NCBI GenBank assembly: GCA_033720895.1
Contig: JAWWBS010000009.1
Location: forward strand, 1 to 50,477
From: Gammaproteobacteria bacterium
GTDB lineage: Bacteria; Pseudomonadota; Gammaproteobacteria; Natronospirales; JAJUFS01
Length of the DNA: 50,477 nucleotides
Direction of reading: 5' to 3'
The notes beneath the pieces were generated by a model, which was given only the letters and a program-made list of their open reading frames with translations, was not told where the DNA came from and ran no database searches. Positions within the stretch are counted from its first letter, which is position 1; each line of letters starts with the position of its first letter. Of the stretch, positions 15,955 through 26,648 are shown piece after piece. Position numbers and translations under genes: made by a program.

Positions 15955-16037
15955 AAGCCATCTATGTACTGATGCGTCCGCTGCAGAGCGATGATGCTTG
16001 GTGCGCGGACAAGGTTAGGGGATTTTTGGAGGTCCTG

Positions 16038-16442
16038 GTGGGGAGCGAAGCGCAAGAATCCGGACTGGATGGTCTGAAAGTGCTCGTCATTGACGACTCC
16101 AAGACCATTCGGCGTACTGCCGAAACACTGCTCAAGAAGGAAGGCTGTGAAGTCGTGACCGCCGTCGATGGATTCGAGGCGCTGGCGATGATCGCCGACC
16201 ACCGGCCGGACATCATTTTCGTGGACATCATGATGCCGCGACTTGATGGCTACCAGACGTGCGCATTGATCAAGCATAACGCCATGTTCAAGTCGACGCC
16301 GGTAATCATGTTGTCTTCCAAGGATGGACTGTTCGACCGTGCGCGCGGGCGCATTGTCGGATCCGAGCAGTACCTGACCAAGCCGTTCACCAAGGACGAG
16401 CTGCTTGGAGCGATTCAGAATCATGTCAAGAAGTCGGCGTGA
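16038..16442 (+). CDS. pilG: Twitching motility response regulator PilG
   Basis: 134 aa, a single CheY-like receiver domain. The GTG at 16038 is chosen because GGAGG lies 5 bases upstream and the resulting length fits Pseudomonas PilG (~135 aa); the open frame continues upstream without similarity. Receiver residues are present: DD in LVIDDSKTIRRT, the phospho-Asp in IIFVDIMMPRLDG, Thr/Ser in VIMLSSKDG and Lys in YLTKPFTKDEL. In the Chp pathway PilG promotes pilus extension (with PilB in Pseudomonas) and polar signalling. Confidence 0.94.
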   Translation: MGSEAQESGLDGLKVLVIDDSKTIRRTAETLLKKEGCEVVTAVDGFEALAMIADHRPDIIFVDIMMPRLDGYQTCALIKHNAMFKSTPVIMLSSKDGLFDRARGRIVGSEQYLTKPFTKDELLGAIQNHVKKSA

Positions 16443-16487
16443 TTCCCTGGATATATAAAGAAACAAATTCGATTGGAGGAAACCAAG

Positions 16488-16859
16488 ATGGCCCTTGTAC
16501 TCATCGTTGATGATTCACCTACCGAAGTCCACGTGCTGAAAACGCACCTGGAGAAGAACGGTTTCGAGACGGTCATCGCAGAGGATGGCGAGACTGGTTT
16601 GAAGGTGGCGAAGGAAGCCAAGCCGGACCTGATCGTGATGGATGTCGTCATGCCCGGCATGAGCGGCTTCCAGACGACCCGTCAGCTGGCAAAGGATGCC
16701 GAGACACAGAACATCCCGGTTGTCATTGTCACGACCAAGGATCAGGAAACCGACAAGGTCTGGGGTATGCGCCAGGGTGCATACGACTACCTGGTCAAGC
16801 CGGTGACCGAGAAGCAGCTGGTCGACAAGGTCAACGAGGCACTGGCCTCGAAGGGCTGA
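16488..16859 (+). CDS. pilH: Twitching motility response regulator PilH
   Basis: 123 aa, a receiver domain only. ATG 16488 has GGAGGA 7 bases upstream; an in-frame TTG at 16473 inside that ribosome site is rejected. Active-site residues are LIVDDSPTEV, LIVMDVVMPGMSG (phospho-Asp), VIVTTKDQ and YLVKPVTEKQL. PilH is the second CheY-like output of the Chp system and counteracts PilG, possibly as a phosphate sink. It follows pilG by 45 bases and precedes pilI by 16. Confidence 0.94.
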   Translation: MALVLIVDDSPTEVHVLKTHLEKNGFETVIAEDGETGLKVAKEAKPDLIVMDVVMPGMSGFQTTRQLAKDAETQNIPVVIVTTKDQETDKVWGMRQGAYDYLVKPVTEKQLVDKVNEALASKG

Positions 16860-16875: not shown

Positions 16876-17439
16876 ATGACGGAAACGGCAAGCTCACTCA
16901 CGGCACTTCGCGACCAGCCCTTCGAGTTGCTGGTTGCGCTGGAGCAGCGCTGCATCAAGGCGGCGGCTGGTCGTGGCCTGGAAACCGGCGCTGCCACCGA
17001 CTGGGTGGGCGTCGGTTTTCGCGTGGGCGAGCACCTGTTTGTCAGCGAACGCCGTGAAGTACGCGAGATCATGACTTATCCCGGTGCCACCAAGGTGCCG
17101 GGCAGCAAGGACTGGCTGAAGGGGCTCGCCAATGTCCGTGGCCAGCTGCTGCCGATCATCGATCTGCAGCAATTTTTCGGTGGTCAGGAATCATTGCCGG
17201 GACGCAACACCCGCGTGATTTCAGTCAACCACGAAGACATTCCTGCCGGCCTGATGGTCGACGAAGTCAGGGGCTTTCGCCGTTTCGATCAAGGTGATTT
17301 GAATAACAAGGTATCAGGCCTGGAATCCGCGCTGACACCTTTTGTTACGGGCAGCTTCGAGCGTGGCTCGGAGACCTGGTATGTGATGGATTTCGGGCGT
17401 CTGGTTGAAAGCCAGACATTTTTGCAGGCTGCCGACTGA
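16876..17439 (+). CDS. pilI: CheW-like adaptor PilI
   Basis: 187 aa with one CheW domain (residues ~40-180). Typical features are WVGVGFRVGEHLFV, the LANVRGQLLPIIDLQQFFG motif and SVNHEDIPAGLMVDEVRGFRRF. PilI links the chemoreceptor PilJ to the kinase ChpA. The gene order pilH-pilI-pilJ supports the assignment over other CheW proteins. Confidence 0.92.
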   Translation: MTETASSLTALRDQPFELLVALEQRCIKAAAGRGLETGAATDWVGVGFRVGEHLFVSERREVREIMTYPGATKVPGSKDWLKGLANVRGQLLPIIDLQQFFGGQESLPGRNTRVISVNHEDIPAGLMVDEVRGFRRFDQGDLNNKVSGLESALTPFVTGSFERGSETWYVMDFGRLVESQTFLQAAD

Positions 17440-17505: not shown

Positions 17506-19656
17506 ATGTCTACGACGCAGGCGAGATCCAGAACCTTTGGTGTCATCCTGACGGTGATTACCGTTCTGGGTGTGGGTGGCGCGTTCTTTGTCTATTTCAA
17601 CATCGCGCTCAACTCGAACGCTGAAGATCGTTTCATGCAGATGCTTTCGGAAGTCGGCTCGGTGTCGCAGAACATTCCGGGCTCGGCGGAGGCGGCACTG
17701 CAGGGTGATCGTGATGCCTTCCAGACCTTGCAGACCAGTCGCGAGTCCTTCGAGCGGAACATCCGCCAGATGGTCGAAGGCGAGGGTGCCTGGGGCGGGG
17801 CCACCGGCGAACTGAAGGATGAAGTCCAGATCCTGGCAACCATCTGGTCGGGCCAGGTTCGCGATGCTGCGAGCGTCGTGCTGGCGGCCAAGGATTCGGC
17901 CAACGTTGCCAACGACAATCTCAACCAGGTCAACAATGACATGCCCGAGTTGCTGGCGCAGCTGGATGGCATTCTCAACACCTTGTCCACCGACGCTGCG
18001 CTGCAGAATCGTGGCACCTGGCTTTACCACCTGGGTCGCCAGGGTGCGTTCGGCCAGCGGCTGTTGCGTGACCTGAACACCCTGGTGCGTGGCGGCAGCA
18101 ACATTGCCGTGGCGGCCAACCGCATTGACAGTGACAGCGCCTACTTTGCCCAGATCATGAATGCCATGTTCGATGGCGATCCGCAGTTCGGCCTGTCCCC
18201 GATCATCAACAGCACGGCTGGCGACGAAATTCGCGCGGCCAACACGCTCTACACGCGAATCAAGGGCGCTGTCGAGACGATCAATTCCCTGGGTGGCACG
18301 CTGGTTCAGGCGCATGCCGCCAAGGCCATGCTGATCTCGCAGCGGGACGACATGCTGACGGCGACGCGTACCATTCGTGCGACCTTCGCACGAGGCCAGG
18401 ATGCGACCGTGTTCAAGCAGGAATACGGCTGGGTGGGTCTTGGTATCGGTCTTATCGCGTTCGTACTGCAGTTCTTCCTGTACACCGTCGCCTCGGATAC
18501 GCGAAAGGCGGCCGAGCGCCAGGCGGAAGAGCAGGCCAAGAACCAGGAAGCAATTCTCCGCCTGCTGGACGAACTTGGCTCGCTGGCAGATGGTGACCTG
18601 ACCGTCCAGGCAACGGTATCCGAGGACATCACGGGCGCCATCGCCGACTCCATCAACTTCGCAATCGAAGCGCTCCGTGACCTCGTATTGACCGTTAACG
18701 ACACGGCACTCCGAGTCGATGCAGCCGCCCGCCAGACGCAGGCCACCGCATCGCACCTGGCAGACGCATCGGAAAACCAGACGGTGCAGATCAAGCAGGC
18801 TACTTCGCAGATTTCGACCATGGCGAAATCCATCGAGCAGGTGTCCGCCAATGCCGACCGGTCTACCCGAGTTGCGCAGCAGTCGGTGGAAATCGCGAAC
18901 AAGGGCGGTGAAGCCGTGCGTCGCACGATCGACGGCATGAACAGCATTCGAGAAACCATTCAGGAAACATCGAAACGCATCAAGCGACTGGGTGAGTCGT
19001 CACAGGAAATTGGTGACATCGTGGAACTCATCAACGACATCGCCGAGCAGACGAACATCCTGGCACTTAACGCGGCAATTCAGGCATCGATGGCAGGCGA
19101 AGCCGGCCGAGGCTTCGCGGTCGTGGCCGACGAAGTCCAGCGCCTTGCAGAACGTTCCGCCAATGCAACACGCCAGATCGAAGCCCTGGTGAAAACCATT
19201 CAGACCGACACCAACGAAGCGGTCATCTCCATGGAGCAATCGACCGCGGGCGTGGTGAGCGGTGCGCAACTTGCCGAGAACGCAGGTTCCGCACTGGACG
19301 AGATCGTGAAGGTCTCCAACCACATCGCAACACTCATTCAATCCATCTCGGCAACCGCGCGCCAGCAGGCGACTGCAGCAACCGACGTGTCCCGGACCAT
19401 GAACGTGATTCAGGAAATCACGACGCAGACCTCGGAAGGCACGCAGGCCACGGCGCGCAACATCGGTAAGCTGGCAACGCTGGCAACCGAGCTCCGGAAG
19501 TCGGTCGCCGGCTTCAAGCTGCCGAACATGGATGGTGGCGAGACCATGGTCATGACGGCCGAGATGCATGCCGAGCAGGACAAGATCGAAGCGCCATCGG
19601 ACAACACCGAATGGCCGGCTGACGAAGACCAGGCAGAAGCAGAACAGAACGCTTGA
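17506..19656 (+). CDS. pilJ: Chemoreceptor-like methyl-accepting protein PilJ
   Basis: 716 aa. The first transmembrane helix spans residues ~10-32, a periplasmic PilJ-type helical sensor region runs to ~305, the second helix spans ~309-328, then HAMP-like and coiled-coil signalling parts follow. The receptor tip [15 protein letters not shown] and [18 protein letters not shown] are conserved. In Pseudomonas PilJ senses pilus tension or pilin interaction rather than soluble ligands and controls ChpA and cAMP levels. The C-terminus is acidic (AEQNA). It lies 66 bases after pilI and 40 before chpA. Confidence 0.94.
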
Positions 19657-19696: not shown

Positions 19697-22600
19697 ATGA
19701 CGCAGGTAGCATCAGACTCGCTACTCTGGATCAAGACAGAGCTTGACAGCACCTTGCTGCGCGCAAGGCATGCGCTGGAAGCCTATGTCGAGAACCAGGA
19801 CGACAAGCAGAAGCTTGAAGAGTGCCTGCTCGCGCTTCACCAGGTGCAGGGCACCCTGCGCATGGTGGAAGTCTATGGCGCTGCCATGCTTGCCCAGGAA
19901 ATGGAGCAGGTCGCCAAGGCGCTGGTAGACGGCAAGGTCGAAGAGCCCGAGGACGCGTACGAAGTCCTGATGCGCGCCATGCTGCAATTGCCGGATTACC
20001 TGGAGCGCATTGTCAGCGGCCAGCGTGATCTTCCACTCGCCCTGCTTTCCCTTCTCAATGACCTGCGATCGGTACGCGGCGAAGCGCTGTTGTCCGAGTC
20101 CACTGTCTTCGCGCAGGGTCTCAGCGATCGTGGCAAGCAGACTATCGAAGCCCGCGACCAGCAGCCGCAGGGCGACATCAAGGAAATCGCCAGCAAGTTG
20201 CGCTCGAAATTCCAGCAGGCGCTGCTCGGCTGGTTCAAGTCCGGTGATGCGAAAACCCTGAAGCAGATTCAGGACATCACCGAGCAGTTCGAAATGGCGG
20301 CGACCTCGCCGATGAGTTTCCAGTTGTGGTGGGTGGTCAGTGGCACCATCGAGGCGCTGGTCGACGGCGGTATCGAAGCGAGTGTCAGCCTGAAGCAGAT
20401 GCTTGGCCAGGTCGATCGCCAGATCAAGCGCGTCATCGACCAGGGCGAAGATGCGCTTGATGACGATCCGCCGTCCGAATTGATCAACAACCTGCTGTAT
20501 TACGTCGGCAAGTCCGCGTCGACGGGCGAACGTGTCAGTGGCATCAAGGAAGCTTTCCGCCTTGGCGAGTTGCTGCCCAGCGACGAGGACATGAGCAGGG
20601 CCAGCCAGGACATGAGTGGCCCCAATGCAAGCCTGATGAAGACGGTGTCTGCCGCGATCAAGGAAGACCTGGCGCGGGTCAAGGACACGCTCGACATTTT
20701 CGTGCGCATGGGCAAGAACGATCCTGTCGAACTGACCGGACTGGCCGAGCTCATGAAGAAGGTGTCGGACACGCTCGGCGTGCTCGGTCTTGGCTCGCTG
20801 CGTGAGCGCATCGATGCGGATCGCCAGCTTCTCGACAAGATCATCGGTGGCACCCAGGAGCTGAATGAAAACATCCTGATGGACATCGCTGGCTCGCTGA
20901 TTCGCGTCGAATCCAGCCTGGATGAGCGCATGGTCGAGACCGTCTTCCGCGAAAACAGCGCCACGCCGGGAGACGACGAGTCCCAGGGCCTGCGTGTCGA
21001 GGAAGCCGATTTCAACCAGGTATCGTCGGCGGTCATTCGCGAGTCGATCATCAACCTGGCGCGCGTCAAGGATGCCATTTCCGAATTCATCAAGTCGCCG
21101 ACCAAGGACGAAATCCTGCGGCCGGTGCCGCCGTTGATTCACCAGATCCAGGCCGGTCTGCGATTGCTCGAAATCGAGCGCGCTGCCGACCTGCTCGAAT
21201 CGGTCCGGCATTACATCCAGCAACGCATCTTCGGCAGTTCCGAGACCCCGTCCGATGCGGATCTTGACCGTTTTGCAGATGCCATTGTCAGCGTCGAGTT
21301 CTACCTCGAAACCGTACAACAGGGTCGCGGCTATCCGGAGTCGATGCTGGACAATGCCGAGAGCTGCGTGAAGGCCCTTGGCTTCCCGCTCGGCTACGTT
21401 CCCGACGACGCCGATAGCGACGATGCCGAACCCGAAGACAGCATTTCGCCTCCGCCGGAGCCCGCCAGGAAGCCCGAAGCCGCCGCCCCTGAGCCGGCTG
21501 CCAAGGCTCCGCCGGCGCCGGCCCCCGTCGAGCGATCGCATTCCATCGGTCCGCAGCCTGACGAGGTTGACCCGGAAATTGTCGAGATTTTCCTTGAGGA
21601 AAGCCGCGAGGAGCTGGCTTCCCTGCAGGAGCATTTCCCGCACTGGAAGAAAAACCCCGAGCACCAGGATTCCCTCAGCACCGTGCGCCGCTCCTTCCAT
21701 ACCTTGAAGGGCAGTGGCCGCATGGTCGGCGCGGAACTTATCGGCGAATTTGCCTGGTCGATCGAGAACATGCTCAACCGCGTCATCGACCAGACGATCT
21801 ACCCGTCGGATGCGATGTTCGACCTGATCGAGTCGGTGATCGAGAAATTGCCGCAATTGATCGAGCAACTCGAAGTCGGAACCGAACCGGATTTCGATCC
21901 CTATGCACTGATGGAGCGTGCCAACGCTATCGCCAGCGGGCAGGAAGCCGAGTCCGGGGAAGAAAGCGAAATCGATCGCCAGAGCGCGACCATGGTTGAT
22001 GCTGCGGAAGAAATCGGTGAAGCCGTCGAAGAGGCAACCGACCAGGCCCCGGCGATCGAGGAGCCCGTCGAAGAGGACGTGGAGGAAGACGTACCGCCGC
22101 CGGAGACCAGCACCGCGACTGGCAAGTTGCCAATGGACGAAGTGCTCTATGGCATCTTCAGCGCAGAGGCTTCGGCACTGGTCGACAAGATCGAGAATTA
22201 CGTCGAGTCGGGCGAGGCGGCCACCGGAAAGGAAATCATCGATGACTTGTTGCGAGCCCTGCATACCTTGAATGGCAGTGCTGCCATGGCGGGCGCTCAC
22301 AGCATTTCCGAGATGGTCGACCCGTTCGAGCAGTACCTCAAGATCCAGATCGAAAACCAGCAGCCGTTGCAGGCGGAAGACATTGCCCTGCTGCAGGAAA
22401 TCATCGGCGTGGTGCGTCGCCAGGTCAGCTCGCTGGAAAAATCCTTCGAAGCAGTGGAAGGCCTGGAAAAGGCCACCACCAAGGGTCGCAAGCTGCTGAT
22501 TGCCGCAACCGAAGCGCATGCATCGAGCAGCGAAACGGCAGGCGAGGCGACCAGCAAACCCTCTTCCCAGCCTGCGCCTGCACCTGCACCGCCAGCTCCG

Positions 22601-25084
22601 CCGCGGGAACTGAAAGTTGTCGATATCAACGAACTGGAGGATTTCGACGAGGAGCTGGCAGAGGTCTTCCTCGAGGAAGCCAGTGAAGTCCTGGAAGGTT
22701 CGGATGCTGCCCTCGAGCAGTGGAGCAACGCCCAGAACGATGTGGAACCGGTCGAGGAACTGCAACGATTGCTGCACACCCTGAAGGGTGGCGCACGCAT
22801 GGCGGGCATCACCCCGATGGGCGACCTTGCGCACGAAATCGAGACCCTGATGGCCAAGGTGACGGACGGTCACTTGCCGGTATCCACTCGAATGTTCTCG
22901 CTGATGCAGCGTGCCATCGACCGACTGCATCGCATGAACGAGCAGGTGATGGGCAGGGCGCCGATCGTCGAAGCATCTGACCTTGTCGATGAATTCCATG
23001 CTTTGATGCGTGGCGAGGATGCGCCGGAGGGCGAGTCCTCGGTCGATGGAAGCGAGGCTGCCGCGCAGGCGCCGAGCCAATCTGCCGAAGCTGCAACGGA
23101 AGCCGCGGAACCGGAGCCGGAATCCACGGCGCAGCCGGAAATGGCTGTCAGCGACTTCGGCAAGCGTGAACGCCTGCCGGGCGAGCCGTTTGATCCCAAG
23201 ATCCATTTCGATCGGCGCAACCAGAACCGTATCCAGCAGGAAGTGGTTCGAGTGCGCGCCGACCTTATCGAGAACCTGATCAACAACGCCGGTGAGGTGT
23301 CCATCTATCGCTCGCGTCTCGAGCAGCAGGTCAACACCATCGGCTTCAACCTCGCCGAGCTGGACCAGACAGTGGTTCGCTTGCGTGAGCAGCTCAGAAA
23401 TCTCGAAATCGAAACCGAGGCACAGGTGTTGTCGCAGTGGGAAAAGGAAGGCCTCGAACGTACCGAGGAATTCGATCCACTGGAGATGGACCGCTATTCC
23501 ACCCTGCAGCAGCTTTCCCGCGCACTAGCCGAGTCGGTTTCCGACCTTGTGTCCATCCAGGGCCTGCTCTTGAACCAGTCGCGCGAGGCGGAAACGCTGC
23601 TGCTGCAGCAGTCGCGGGTCAACACGGCGCTGCAGGACGGCCTCATGCGCACCCGCATGGTGCCGTTCTCCAAGCATGCCCAGCGCCTGCGCCGCATTGT
23701 CCGGCAAACGGCAGACGAAATTGGCAAGCAGGCAGAGCTGCAACTGTCTGGTGCAGAAGGTGAGATGGACCGCCAGATCCTCGAGCGTGTGCTGGCACCG
23801 CTCGAGCACATGATGCGCAACTCGGTGGTGCACGGCATCGAAAGTCCAGAGGTGCGCAAGAAGGCCGGCAAGCCCGAGCAAGGCACCGTCTACATCAACC
23901 TCACGCGAGAAGGTTCGGAAGTCGTGCTGCGCATCACTGATGATGGCGCAGGCCTCAACGTCGACGCCATTCGCAAGAAAGCCGAGAAACAGGGGCTGCT
24001 GCGCCCAGGTGCAAAGATTTCCGACAACGATGTAATGCAGTTCATCCTGGAATCCGGCTTTTCAACGGCCGAGGAAATCACCCAGGCCGCTGGTCGCGGT
24101 GTTGGTATGGACGTCGTGTACAGCGAAATCAAACAGCTGGGCGGATCACTGGTGATCGCTTCCCAGGCAGGCAAGGGTGCCGAGTTCGTCATTCGCCTGC
24201 CGTTCACCCTTGCGATTACCCAGGCGCTGATGGTGACGGTTGCCGACGATACGTTTGCGATTCCGCTGCCGACCATCGAAGGTATCGTGCGTCTGCCGCG
24301 CAAGGACGTGATGGCCTACTTCGATTCCGAAAACCCGAGCTTCAGCTACGGTGGCGACGAATACTCGCTGGAGCATCTGTCTGCCTTGCTGGGCATGGGC
24401 ATTCCGAAGTTCCCGGAAGAGCTCGACACCATCCCGGTGCTGCTCGTGAAGGCGGGTGACCATAATTCGGCACTGGTGACCGAAGGCATGCAGGGCAGCC
24501 GTGAAATCGTCGTGAAATCGGTCGGTCCGCAGATTTCCTCGATTCGAGGAATCGCTGGCGCTACGCTGCTTGGCGATGGATCGATCCTTCTCATTCTCGA
24601 TGCCGCCGGTCTCGTTCGCGCTGCTGCTGCTGCCAAGGCACAGGGTGCGATGCTGGATGCCGGCGAACGCGAGGAAGCGCAGGAAGACGAACGTACTTTG
24701 GCCATGGTGGTGGACGACTCCATCACCGTGCGCCGCGTCACGCAGCGCCTGCTGGAACGCTACGGCATGCGTGTGATCACGGCGAAAGATGGCGTTGATG
24801 CTCTCTCGGTCCTGCAGGAAAGCATCCCGGACGTAATGCTGCTTGATATCGAAATGCCACGCATGGACGGTTTCGAGCTGGCAACGCACATCCGCAATGA
24901 TGACCGCCTGCAGGGAATACCGATCATCATGATCACGTCGCGTACCGGTGAGAAACACCGCAATCGTGCCATGGAAATCGGTGTCAACAAGTATCTCGGC
25001 AAGCCCTACCAGGAAGGCGAACTCGTCGAGCAGATCCAGTCACTGGTTGGAAAGTTCAACCCTGAACGCACACGCTGGGATTGA
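19697..25084 (+). CDS. chpA: Hybrid chemotaxis kinase ChpA (PilL) with multiple Hpt domains and receiver
   Basis: 1795 aa. Order of domains: an N-terminal FimL/Hpt-like region with a degenerate phosphosite (His48 in LHQVQGTL), a long helical segment, three clear Hpt domains with His668 (FHTLKGSGRMVG), His856 (LHTLNGSAAMAG) and His1027 (LHTLKGGARMAG), a CheA-type dimerisation region, an ATPase domain (N box from His1371, HMMRNSVVHG; DDGAG; GRGVGMD), a CheW-like domain and a C-terminal receiver with phospho-Asp1717 (MLLDIEMPRMDG). Pro/Ala/Glu linkers join the Hpt domains. It phosphorylates PilG and PilH. Pseudomonas ChpA is longer and has more phosphosites, so this is a reduced version. Confidence 0.94.
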   Translation: MTQVASDSLLWIKTELDSTLLRARHALEAYVENQDDKQKLEECLLALHQVQGTLRMVEVYGAAMLAQEMEQVAKALVDGKVEEPEDAYEVLMRAMLQLPDYLERIVSGQRDLPLALLSLLNDLRSVRGEALLSESTVFAQGLSDRGKQTIEARDQQPQGDIKEIASKLRSKFQQALLGWFKSGDAKTLKQIQDITEQFEMAATSPMSFQLWWVVSGTIEALVDGGIEASVSLKQMLGQVDRQIKRVIDQGEDALDDDPPSELINNLLYYVGKSASTGERVSGIKEAFRLGELLPSDEDMSRASQDMSGPNASLMKTVSAAIKEDLARVKDTLDIFVRMGKNDPVELTGLAELMKKVSDTLGVLGLGSLRERIDADRQLLDKIIGGTQELNENILMDIAGSLIRVESSLDERMVETVFRENSATPGDDESQGLRVEEADFNQVSSAVIRESIINLARVKDAISEFIKSPTKDEILRPVPPLIHQIQAGLRLLEIERAADLLESVRHYIQQRIFGSSETPSDADLDRFADAIVSVEFYLETVQQGRGYPESMLDNAESCVKALGFPLGYVPDDADSDDAEPEDSISPPPEPARKPEAAAPEPAAKAPPAPAPVERSHSIGPQPDEVDPEIVEIFLEESREELASLQEHFPHWKKNPEHQDSLSTVRRSFHTLKGSGRMVGAELIGEFAWSIENMLNRVIDQTIYPSDAMFDLIESVIEKLPQLIEQLEVGTEPDFDPYALMERANAIASGQEAESGEESEIDRQSATMVDAAEEIGEAVEEATDQAPAIEEPVEEDVEEDVPPPETSTATGKLPMDEVLYGIFSAEASALVDKIENYVESGEAATGKEIIDDLLRALHTLNGSAAMAGAHSISEMVDPFEQYLKIQIENQQPLQAEDIALLQEIIGVVRRQVSSLEKSFEAVEGLEKATTKGRKLLIAATEAHASSSETAGEATSKPSSQPAPAPAPPAPPRELKVVDINELEDFDEELAEVFLEEASEVLEGSDAALEQWSNAQNDVEPVEELQRLLHTLKGGARMAGITPMGDLAHEIETLMAKVTDGHLPVSTRMFSLMQRAIDRLHRMNEQVMGRAPIVEASDLVDEFHALMRGEDAPEGESSVDGSEAAAQAPSQSAEAATEAAEPEPESTAQPEMAVSDFGKRERLPGEPFDPKIHFDRRNQNRIQQEVVRVRADLIENLINNAGEVSIYRSRLEQQVNTIGFNLAELDQTVVRLREQLRNLEIETEAQVLSQWEKEGLERTEEFDPLEMDRYSTLQQLSRALAESVSDLVSIQGLLLNQSREAETLLLQQSRVNTALQDGLMRTRMVPFSKHAQRLRRIVRQTADEIGKQAELQLSGAEGEMDRQILERVLAPLEHMMRNSVVHGIESPEVRKKAGKPEQGTVYINLTREGSEVVLRITDDGAGLNVDAIRKKAEKQGLLRPGAKISDNDVMQFILESGFSTAEEITQAAGRGVGMDVVYSEIKQLGGSLVIASQAGKGAEFVIRLPFTLAITQALMVTVADDTFAIPLPTIEGIVRLPRKDVMAYFDSENPSFSYGGDEYSLEHLSALLGMGIPKFPEELDTIPVLLVKAGDHNSALVTEGMQGSREIVVKSVGPQISSIRGIAGATLLGDGSILLILDAAGLVRAAAAAKAQGAMLDAGEREEAQEDERTLAMVVDDSITVRRVTQRLLERYGMRVITAKDGVDALSVLQESIPDVMLLDIEMPRMDGFELATHIRNDDRLQGIPIIMITSRTGEKHRNRAMEIGVNKYLGKPYQEGELVEQIQSLVGKFNPERTRWD

Positions 25085-25091
25085 TTGACTC

Positions 25092-25910
25092 ATGCAGCAG
25101 GCCCTGAAAGAAGTCTACAGTTTGCTGATTCCCCTGCAGGGAAACCGCATTGTGCTGCCGCGTGCAGCGGTTGCGGAGGTAACCGGTTTCGTAAAACCGA
25201 AAGACCGGCCTGACAATGCGCCACCCTTCCTGCTCGGCTTCATGAACTGGCAGGGTCAGGATATTCCGATGATTTCCTACGAACTCGCCTGCGGCAAGAA
25301 AGCACCCGACATGGGTCGTCGTGCCCGCATCGCGATCGTGTTCGGCATCGATGACAAGCTCGAGCCGAATGCCTTTGCCGTTCTCACGCAAGGCTACCCC
25401 TACCTGGTTCGTGTCAATGCCGGCGTGTTGCACAAGGAAGAACTTGGCAGCGAAGACAAGCAGGGCCCGGTTCTTGCGCGGGTTCGCATGGCGAACGAAA
25501 GGCCTTTGATTCCTGATCTCGAAAGCCTCGAGCGCATGCTTGTCGCTGCGCTCGATGGCAAGAACGTCAAGGGCGATGCCGCAGTCGAGGAAGCTGGCAG
25601 CGCCGAGCCCGAAGACGAGCTGGCAGCCCTGGACCTGGGTGGCGAGGACGAATTCGAGGATGCCTTGCTCAACCAGGATTCGCTCGGCGAAGAGACCATG
25701 GAGGACATCGGCGCTGCGCTGGGACAGGATGATGACTCGTCCGGTGATGACGAAGAGACCGAGTTCGGTATTGAAATGGAAGGTATCGATTCCGAACTTG
25801 GCGAGGACGAATCCACAGACGAGTCCGGAGCAAAGAAAAAGGGCGATGAGGATGACGAGTTCGACATCGACCTGGACGATATAGAATTCGAAGGATTCGA
25901 CGACGACTGA
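25092..25910 (+). CDS. ChpC-like CheW-domain protein with long acidic C-terminal tail
   Basis: 272 aa, 7 bases after chpA. Residues ~5-155 form a CheW-like domain (YSLLIPLQGNRIVLPRAAV, then FLLGFMNWQGQDIPMISYE), as in ChpC, the accessory adaptor of the Chp system. The remaining ~110 residues are low-complexity and almost half Asp/Glu, ending in repeated acidic/hydrophobic patches (DIDLDDIEFEGFDDD). ChpC of Pseudomonas (~168 aa) lacks such a tail. The tail could bind a basic partner or regulate localisation. Its 3' end is 3 bases from the convergent rsmE stop. Confidence 0.8.
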   Translation: MQQALKEVYSLLIPLQGNRIVLPRAAVAEVTGFVKPKDRPDNAPPFLLGFMNWQGQDIPMISYELACGKKAPDMGRRARIAIVFGIDDKLEPNAFAVLTQGYPYLVRVNAGVLHKEELGSEDKQGPVLARVRMANERPLIPDLESLERMLVAALDGKNVKGDAAVEEAGSAEPEDELAALDLGGEDEFEDALLNQDSLGEETMEDIGAALGQDDDSSGDDEETEFGIEMEGIDSELGEDESTDESGAKKKGDEDDEFDIDLDDIEFEGFDDD

Positions 25911-25913
25911 TTC

Positions 25914-26648
25914 TCAGTCGTATTCTCCCCACCGAGAAAGCAGTGCAGCGGCGGCCACCACGGCCGCCGTTTCCGTCCTGAGTACTCGACTACCGAGCCG
26001 CAGCGCCTCGAAGCCTGCAGCCAGCAAATGTGCGTTCTCTGTTTCGCTGAATCCGCCTTCCGGACCGATGACAAGGCCGACACCCGTGTCAGGACGAGCC
26101 AGCCTAGCCGGTGTGCCTGTTGCATCCGGATCGAGCATGAAGTGCCGGATGCCGCGCCGCGGTGCAGCCAGGTATTCATCCATCGTGATCACTGGCAGCA
26201 GCTCGGGTACGCGATTGCGGCCCGTTTGCTCGCAGGCGCTGCGCATGATGCCCAGCCAGTGGTCATGCCGTTTTTCCCGCTTTCGCTCATCCAGCTTGAC
26301 CACGCACCGTTCCGTCACAATCGGCTGGATGCAGCTGAAGCCCACTTCCACGGCTTTCTGGATGGTGTAGTCCATGCGTTCGCCGCGCGACAGGCCCTGC
26401 ACCAGGGTCATGTCCACTGATGCTTCACGTTCGACCTCGGCGTGTTCCTCCAGGCTGACTTCAGCCTTGCGCCCTTCGAGCAAGCTGACCTTGCCGTACC
26501 ACTCACCGCCCTGGCCATTGAACAGTGTGACCGGCTGGCCGACCGTGGCACGCAGCACCTTGCCGAGGTGCTGGGCCGCTGACTTCTCCAGAGTCACGCA
26601 TTCGCCGCTTGCCAGCGGGCCATCATGAAACAGCCGAATCTCGCGCAT
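25914..26648 (-). CDS. rsmE: 16S rRNA (uracil-1498-N3)-methyltransferase
   Basis: 244 aa. SPOUT-fold enzyme methylating U1498 of 16S rRNA. An N-terminal PUA-like part (HLGKVLRATVGQPVTLFNG) is followed by the knot domain with GLSRGERMDYTIQKAVEVG, SACEQTGRNRVPEL, VGLVIGPEGGFSETE and LRLGSRVLRTETA. Together with bioA (2 bases upstream) it forms a pair that is conserved in several gammaproteobacteria. Confidence 0.94.
   Translation of the reverse strand: MREIRLFHDGPLASGECVTLEKSAAQHLGKVLRATVGQPVTLFNGQGGEWYGKVSLLEGRKAEVSLEEHAEVEREASVDMTLVQGLSRGERMDYTIQKAVEVGFSCIQPIVTERCVVKLDERKREKRHDHWLGIMRSACEQTGRNRVPELLPVITMDEYLAAPRRGIRHFMLDPDATGTPARLARPDTGVGLVIGPEGGFSETENAHLLAAGFEALRLGSRVLRTETAAVVAAAALLSRWGEYD

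Follow-up and report, generated by a model that had tools for sequence, protein, structure and literature searches.

What might a long acidic extension do on an adaptor of a type IV pilus chemosensory (Pil-Chp) array? In the window, by which we mean the whole 50,477-nucleotide stretch of DNA analysed here, an open reading frame at 25092–25910 (+) directly after the gene for ChpA encodes a 272-aa ChpC-type CheW-domain protein. Its core (residues 1–160; 25092–25571, +) has a pI of about 8.7 and shares 43–61% identity with nine homologues from the same order, and residues 11–146 match the Pfam CheW domain (PF01584, E 3.5e-07, above cutoff). A structure model computed from an alignment of 16 sequences reached a mean pLDDT of 63.9, and the best PDB matches to the predicted fold were CheW structures (Foldseek, best E 1.9e-06). 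Pfam returned no domain in the protein besides CheW, and NCBIfam returned nothing.

The genes upstream, all on the forward strand, follow the pilGHIJ-chpA order: PilG-type (15972–16442) and PilH-type (16473–16859) response regulators, both with receiver-family matches, named by position and found in the equivalent place in the loci of five relatives; a PilI-type CheW protein (16876–17439), the array's other adaptor, without an acidic tail; a PilJ-type chemoreceptor (17506–19656) with a 43-aa C-terminal extension after the sequence GFKLP; and a ChpA-type kinase (19697–25084; Hpt, HATPase, CheW and receiver domains by Pfam), whose end lies 7 bases upstream of the start of ChpC. Between pilJ, chpA and chpC there is no room for a PilK or ChpB gene. 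Downstream lies a convergent gene for an RsmE-type RNA methyltransferase (25914–26648, −; PF04452), which is outside the Pil-Chp system; by eye, an RsmE-like protein also follows chpC in two other loci (L003 and L004), marking conserved synteny. Since its gene is the second of CheW type in the locus and adjoins chpA after pilGHIJ, we identify the protein as ChpC, the array's second CheW-like adaptor, which is likewise encoded in the pilG-pilH-pilI-pilJ-chpA-chpC locus of Pseudomonas aeruginosa. The P. aeruginosa ChpC is described as largely dispensable for twitching, although responses to several signals require it, and its localization is listed as unknown (PMC12632253). The adaptor itself is known, and what is new here is the acidic-tailed variant.

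The tail comprises residues 161–272 (25572–25907, +; stop codon at 25908–25910) and consists of 44% Asp plus Glu (D+E), 3% Lys plus Arg (K+R) and 20% hydrophobic residues. The first-pass annotation, made from the sequence alone, had described a ChpC-like adaptor with an acidic tail of about 110 residues, which agrees with the CheW domain and 112-aa tail found here, although its start at 25573 was one base out of frame. The last part, DEFDIDLDDIEFEGFDDD (25854–25907, +), contains alternating acid-hydrophobic steps; to call these repeats, as had been done, was too strong, because TRF found no tandem repeat in the gene. Expansion of a DNA repeat was rejected on the same ground. Because blocks over residues 161–250 had pLDDT values of 38–53, the tail is predicted to be disordered over most of its length; values rose to 62, 75 and 66 for residues 251–260, 261–270 and 271–272. 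The most acidic 110-aa segment of ChpC has 43.6% D+E, compared with 30% for the runner-up among the window's open frames. A simple script that called 220 ORFs across 250 kb of this genome (G000) yielded only two, ChpC and ScpB, with 35% or more D+E in the C-terminal 90 aa. The acidic C-terminal tail of ScpB (L122, 442–1293, −) is about 100 aa long. A search of G000 for tail homologues to E 10 returned the ChpC tail itself only, and a profile search of solved-structure sequences gave no match.

Among 19 genomes of the order, 17 yielded a match, one of which (G010) had a weak PilI-type match only, leaving 16 with ChpC. In this census, two loci with weak PilI-type matches (L018 and L019) were left out and 14 duplicates from within the order (L020–L033) were counted once; a scan of genome contigs with an alignment found 11 named loci, after a first scan had found none. 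Tailed ChpC proteins occurred in 2 of the 16 genomes, both from the window's family, which is represented here by these two genomes, of different genera (G000 and G001, with tails of 112 and about 173 aa). In the remaining 14 proteins no more than 17 aa follow the CheW domain: none of those found in the family of Natronospira (three of four genomes) has a tail, nor do any of the 11 found in a fourth family.

Outside the order, a class-level sample gave matches in 175 of 369 genomes, from which 47 loci were opened (the 26 best returned as loci, plus all other listed frames of at least 200 aa). The order of G184, whose own ChpC locus is counted among those 47, gave matches in 194 of 246 genomes, from which a further 44 loci were opened (the listed frames of at least 200 aa, G184 excepted). 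Among the matches listed, none of the 91 loci opened carried an acidic ChpC tail; a rare tailed ChpC among shorter or unlisted frames could be missed. The strongly acidic tail claimed in the first-pass annotation is thereby set apart, being absent from all other ChpC loci opened. To our knowledge ChpC of P. aeruginosa has no tail, and a search of the open-licence literature found no record of a CheW or PilJ protein with an acidic or disordered C-terminal tail. Three of the 91 loci had extensions of other kinds, one being a 70-aa stretch of 16% D+E and two being joined to Hpt domains. In the latter two (L069, 946–2844, −; L063, 986–2464, +), a ChpC-type CheW domain is joined N-terminally to Hpt in a single frame; these proteins, encoded in G249 and G134, which belong to separate families, are likely ChpC-ChpA fusions.

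Within the window's family, the cores of the two tailed proteins are 61–63% identical, whereas an alignment of their tails scored 88 against 74.9 ± 10.0 for shuffled sequences, 10.9% of which scored as high. Whether the tail is conserved in close relatives, a question raised by the first-pass annotation, is thus answered in two parts: a tail is present in both genomes, but its length and sequence differ. Presence, charge and texture are kept between the two tails and sequence is not.

The texture in question is an alternation of the form [DE]-hydrophobic-[DE]-hydrophobic (e.g., FDIDL), a motif that was picked after viewing the sequences, so that its p-values serve as guides. By that measure, the G000 ChpC tail holds 3 matches versus 0.81 expected (p 0.049), a borderline enrichment when taken alone, and the G001 tail holds 7 versus 1.25 (p 0.0003). 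The acidic region of the polar hub protein FimV, which lies before its C-terminal TPR domain, was enriched in four of five genomes examined, with 5 matches versus 0.78 expected in G000 (p 0.0023), 7 versus 0.65 in G001 (0 of 3000 shuffles as high), 4 versus 0.78 in G005 (p 0.0123), and 6 versus 0.53 in G002 (0 of 3000 shuffles as high); FimV of G011, with a region of only 15% D+E, showed no enrichment (p 0.17). Three ChpA linkers had 0 matches each. Taken together, 79 other acidic segments (60 aa, D+E ≥25%, drawn from a total of 314 ORFs in G000 and G005) were not enriched, with 20 matches seen versus 22.3 expected, although two of the 79 have two or three. A single match occurs in the ScpB tail (p 0.18; p 0.024 for a narrower motif), and a stricter motif, [DE][DE][IL][DE][WF], is present in the G000 ChpC tail and absent from that of G001. 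The resemblance is one of texture, as the ChpC tails and FimV gave no significant alignment (35.6 and 10.6% of shuffles as high), and neither the FimV core nor the C-terminal TPR FimV domain occurs in ChpC; both models match other G000 contigs. FimV is textured in G002, an 84%-complete genome in which searches found no ChpC and no PilJ, so the texture of FimV need not concern the array. The fimV gene of G000 runs off the ends of contigs C12 and C58 (L116 and L117); both ends carry one and the same short stretch, which marks an assembly break within the gene.

Acidic C termini also occur on the chemoreceptor, as became apparent when the locus was compared across six genomes. PilJ was recovered in 16 loci from the 19 order genomes searched, and the length of its C terminus after GFKLP differs by family. 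All four Natronospira-family genomes (L161, 3309–5591; L166–L169) have 87–109 aa of 38–41% D+E, with a [DE][IL][DE]W[PA]E motif and the ending E[RK]V[DE]. In the window's family the PilJ ends comprise 43 aa (30% acidic, with the sequence TEWPADED, which by eye resembles the end of the Natronospira-family tail) and 26 aa (15% acidic), and all 10 found in the fourth family are 16–21 aa long and at most 12% acidic. The families differ in whether ChpC, PilJ or neither protein bears an acidic arm. What the four Natronospira-family PilJ tails have in common with the ChpC tails is charge and not alternation (p 0.28–0.43). A PilJ tree did not resolve the branching of the three families, nor hence the ancestral state. 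Outside the order, where 42 of 114 sampled genomes matched and 28 returned loci were inspected, a single locus (L199, in G032) had a long acidic PilJ tail (107 aa, 32% D+E), perhaps an independent gain; the order of G032 was represented by that genome only. Two further PilJ ends among the 28 have 32 aa of 31% D+E and 51 aa of 22% D+E.

The reading that we tentatively prefer, with a probability of roughly 37%, is that the ChpC tail is a disordered, fast-evolving arm that engages a partner common to FimV and so ties the Pil-Chp array to the pole. CheW domains occupy the receptor tip together with the kinase, and, to judge from its protein family, the CheW domain of ChpC would seat the protein in the PilJ-ChpA array, with the tail projecting outward as an arm that is long, flexible and charged. 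Short acid-hydrophobic-acid-hydrophobic motifs along that arm could then make weak, multivalent contacts with a partner. Since FimV of the same genomes has an acidic region of like texture, the likeliest partner would be one that also reads this region of FimV; direct binding between one acidic region and another is improbable, which is why a common partner is proposed. Such contacts might help to hold or attract Pil-Chp signaling at the FimV polar hub. We infer the binding, the partner and the polar tethering alike. The first-pass annotation had suggested a basic partner, for example a pilus motor, polar marker or nucleoid protein; the analysis gives no specific indication of a pilus motor or a nucleoid protein, while the FimV-like texture and the acidic PilJ tail in a related family lend indirect support to a link with a polar marker. 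An arm of this kind is not essential to Pil-Chp, given the fourth family with its tail-less ChpC and short PilJ ends.

Tethering of this sort has a working analogy in Vibrio ParP, in which a CheW/CheA-P5-like domain enters arrays and an N-terminal domain links the arrays to a polar anchor (PMC5706961). In both proteins a CheW-like domain is joined to an extension, but the anchor-binding domain of ParP is N-terminal behind a proline-rich linker, whereas the extension of ChpC is C-terminal and acidic. An N-terminal anchor-binding domain as in ParP was not found in ChpC, where ten residues precede the CheW match. ParP also has a gene for a parC-type ATPase nearby. In CheV, the part added to a CheW-like domain is a phosphorylatable receiver; the addition to ChpC has no Pfam domain. 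The cytoplasmic region of FimV/HubP is acid-rich and little conserved between genera (PMC12918733). ChpC resembles FimV in the alternating texture found in both proteins of this genome, and differs from it in having no domain but CheW.

It is also possible, if doubtful, that the tail has no specific partner and is a passive arm serving solubility or spacing, a stretch of quickly drifting charged disorder that limits undesired packing or aggregation among the array proteins. The lack of sequence conservation between the two family members would be expected of such an arm, and the lineage has other acidic segments, in the ScpB tail, the ChpA linker and FimV. Against drift of this kind stand an alternation that is enriched in the ChpC tails and FimV and not over the 79 other acidic segments, and the recurrence of an acidic tail on another subunit of the array, PilJ, in a related family. 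We consider it unlikely that the tail acts within the array, folding back on the basic CheW core or joining a neighboring CheW/P5 barrel as an extra beta strand, and so tuning the occupancy of ChpC versus PilI. The mildly basic core, the rise in pLDDT over residues 251–272 relative to the rest of the tail, and the suitability of alternating residues for a strand are consistent with this possibility, but the model gives the tail no strand, just a three-residue helix, and the tail of the G001 relative ends differently.

Two further explanations fared worse. That the tails mirror a halophilic, acidic proteome is suggested by the presence in the order of Natronospira, which is haloalkaliphilic, yet the mean D+E of G000 ORFs (about 0.113–0.116) is close to their mean K+R (0.115), so that there is no acidic proteome, and the more acidic G005 (0.126 vs. 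0.102) has a ChpC without a tail; adaptation to salt was rejected on the composition of this ORF sample and seems very improbable. Least probable of all, and barely credible, is that the tail recruits a PilK/CheR methyltransferase through the sequence EFEGF, which lies close to the end of the flexible tail in G000 and which we take to resemble the CheR-binding pentapeptide consensus. This candidate was disfavored because no CheR domain (PF01739) was found in G000 (estimated 100% complete), and the tail of G001, in which one was found, ends LELLDDDDDKQG. With no CheR domain found, PilK-type receptor methylation seems absent from G000, even though PilJ and ChpA are present there.

The preferred reading, an arm tying the array to the pole, can be extended to a broader one that we regard as rather unlikely, in which acidic, hydrophobic-dotted disordered arms would form an interchangeable Pil-Chp pole module, located on FimV in most families, additionally on PilJ in the Natronospira family and on ChpC in the window's family, and all read by one polar client. 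If this were true, selection would keep an arm on the array and not on a fixed subunit. The wider interest lies in comparing families that have the arm on either ChpC or PilJ, or lack it, and ChpC with its FimV-textured arm and its relatives are natural variants with which to ask whether such arms position chemosensory arrays. One further feature was noted by eye: motifs resembling ETMVM or TETVVG occur both in PilJ C termini (19525–19653 in the window) and in the cytoplasmic region of FimV (L115–L120), and might represent a docking site common to the two proteins.
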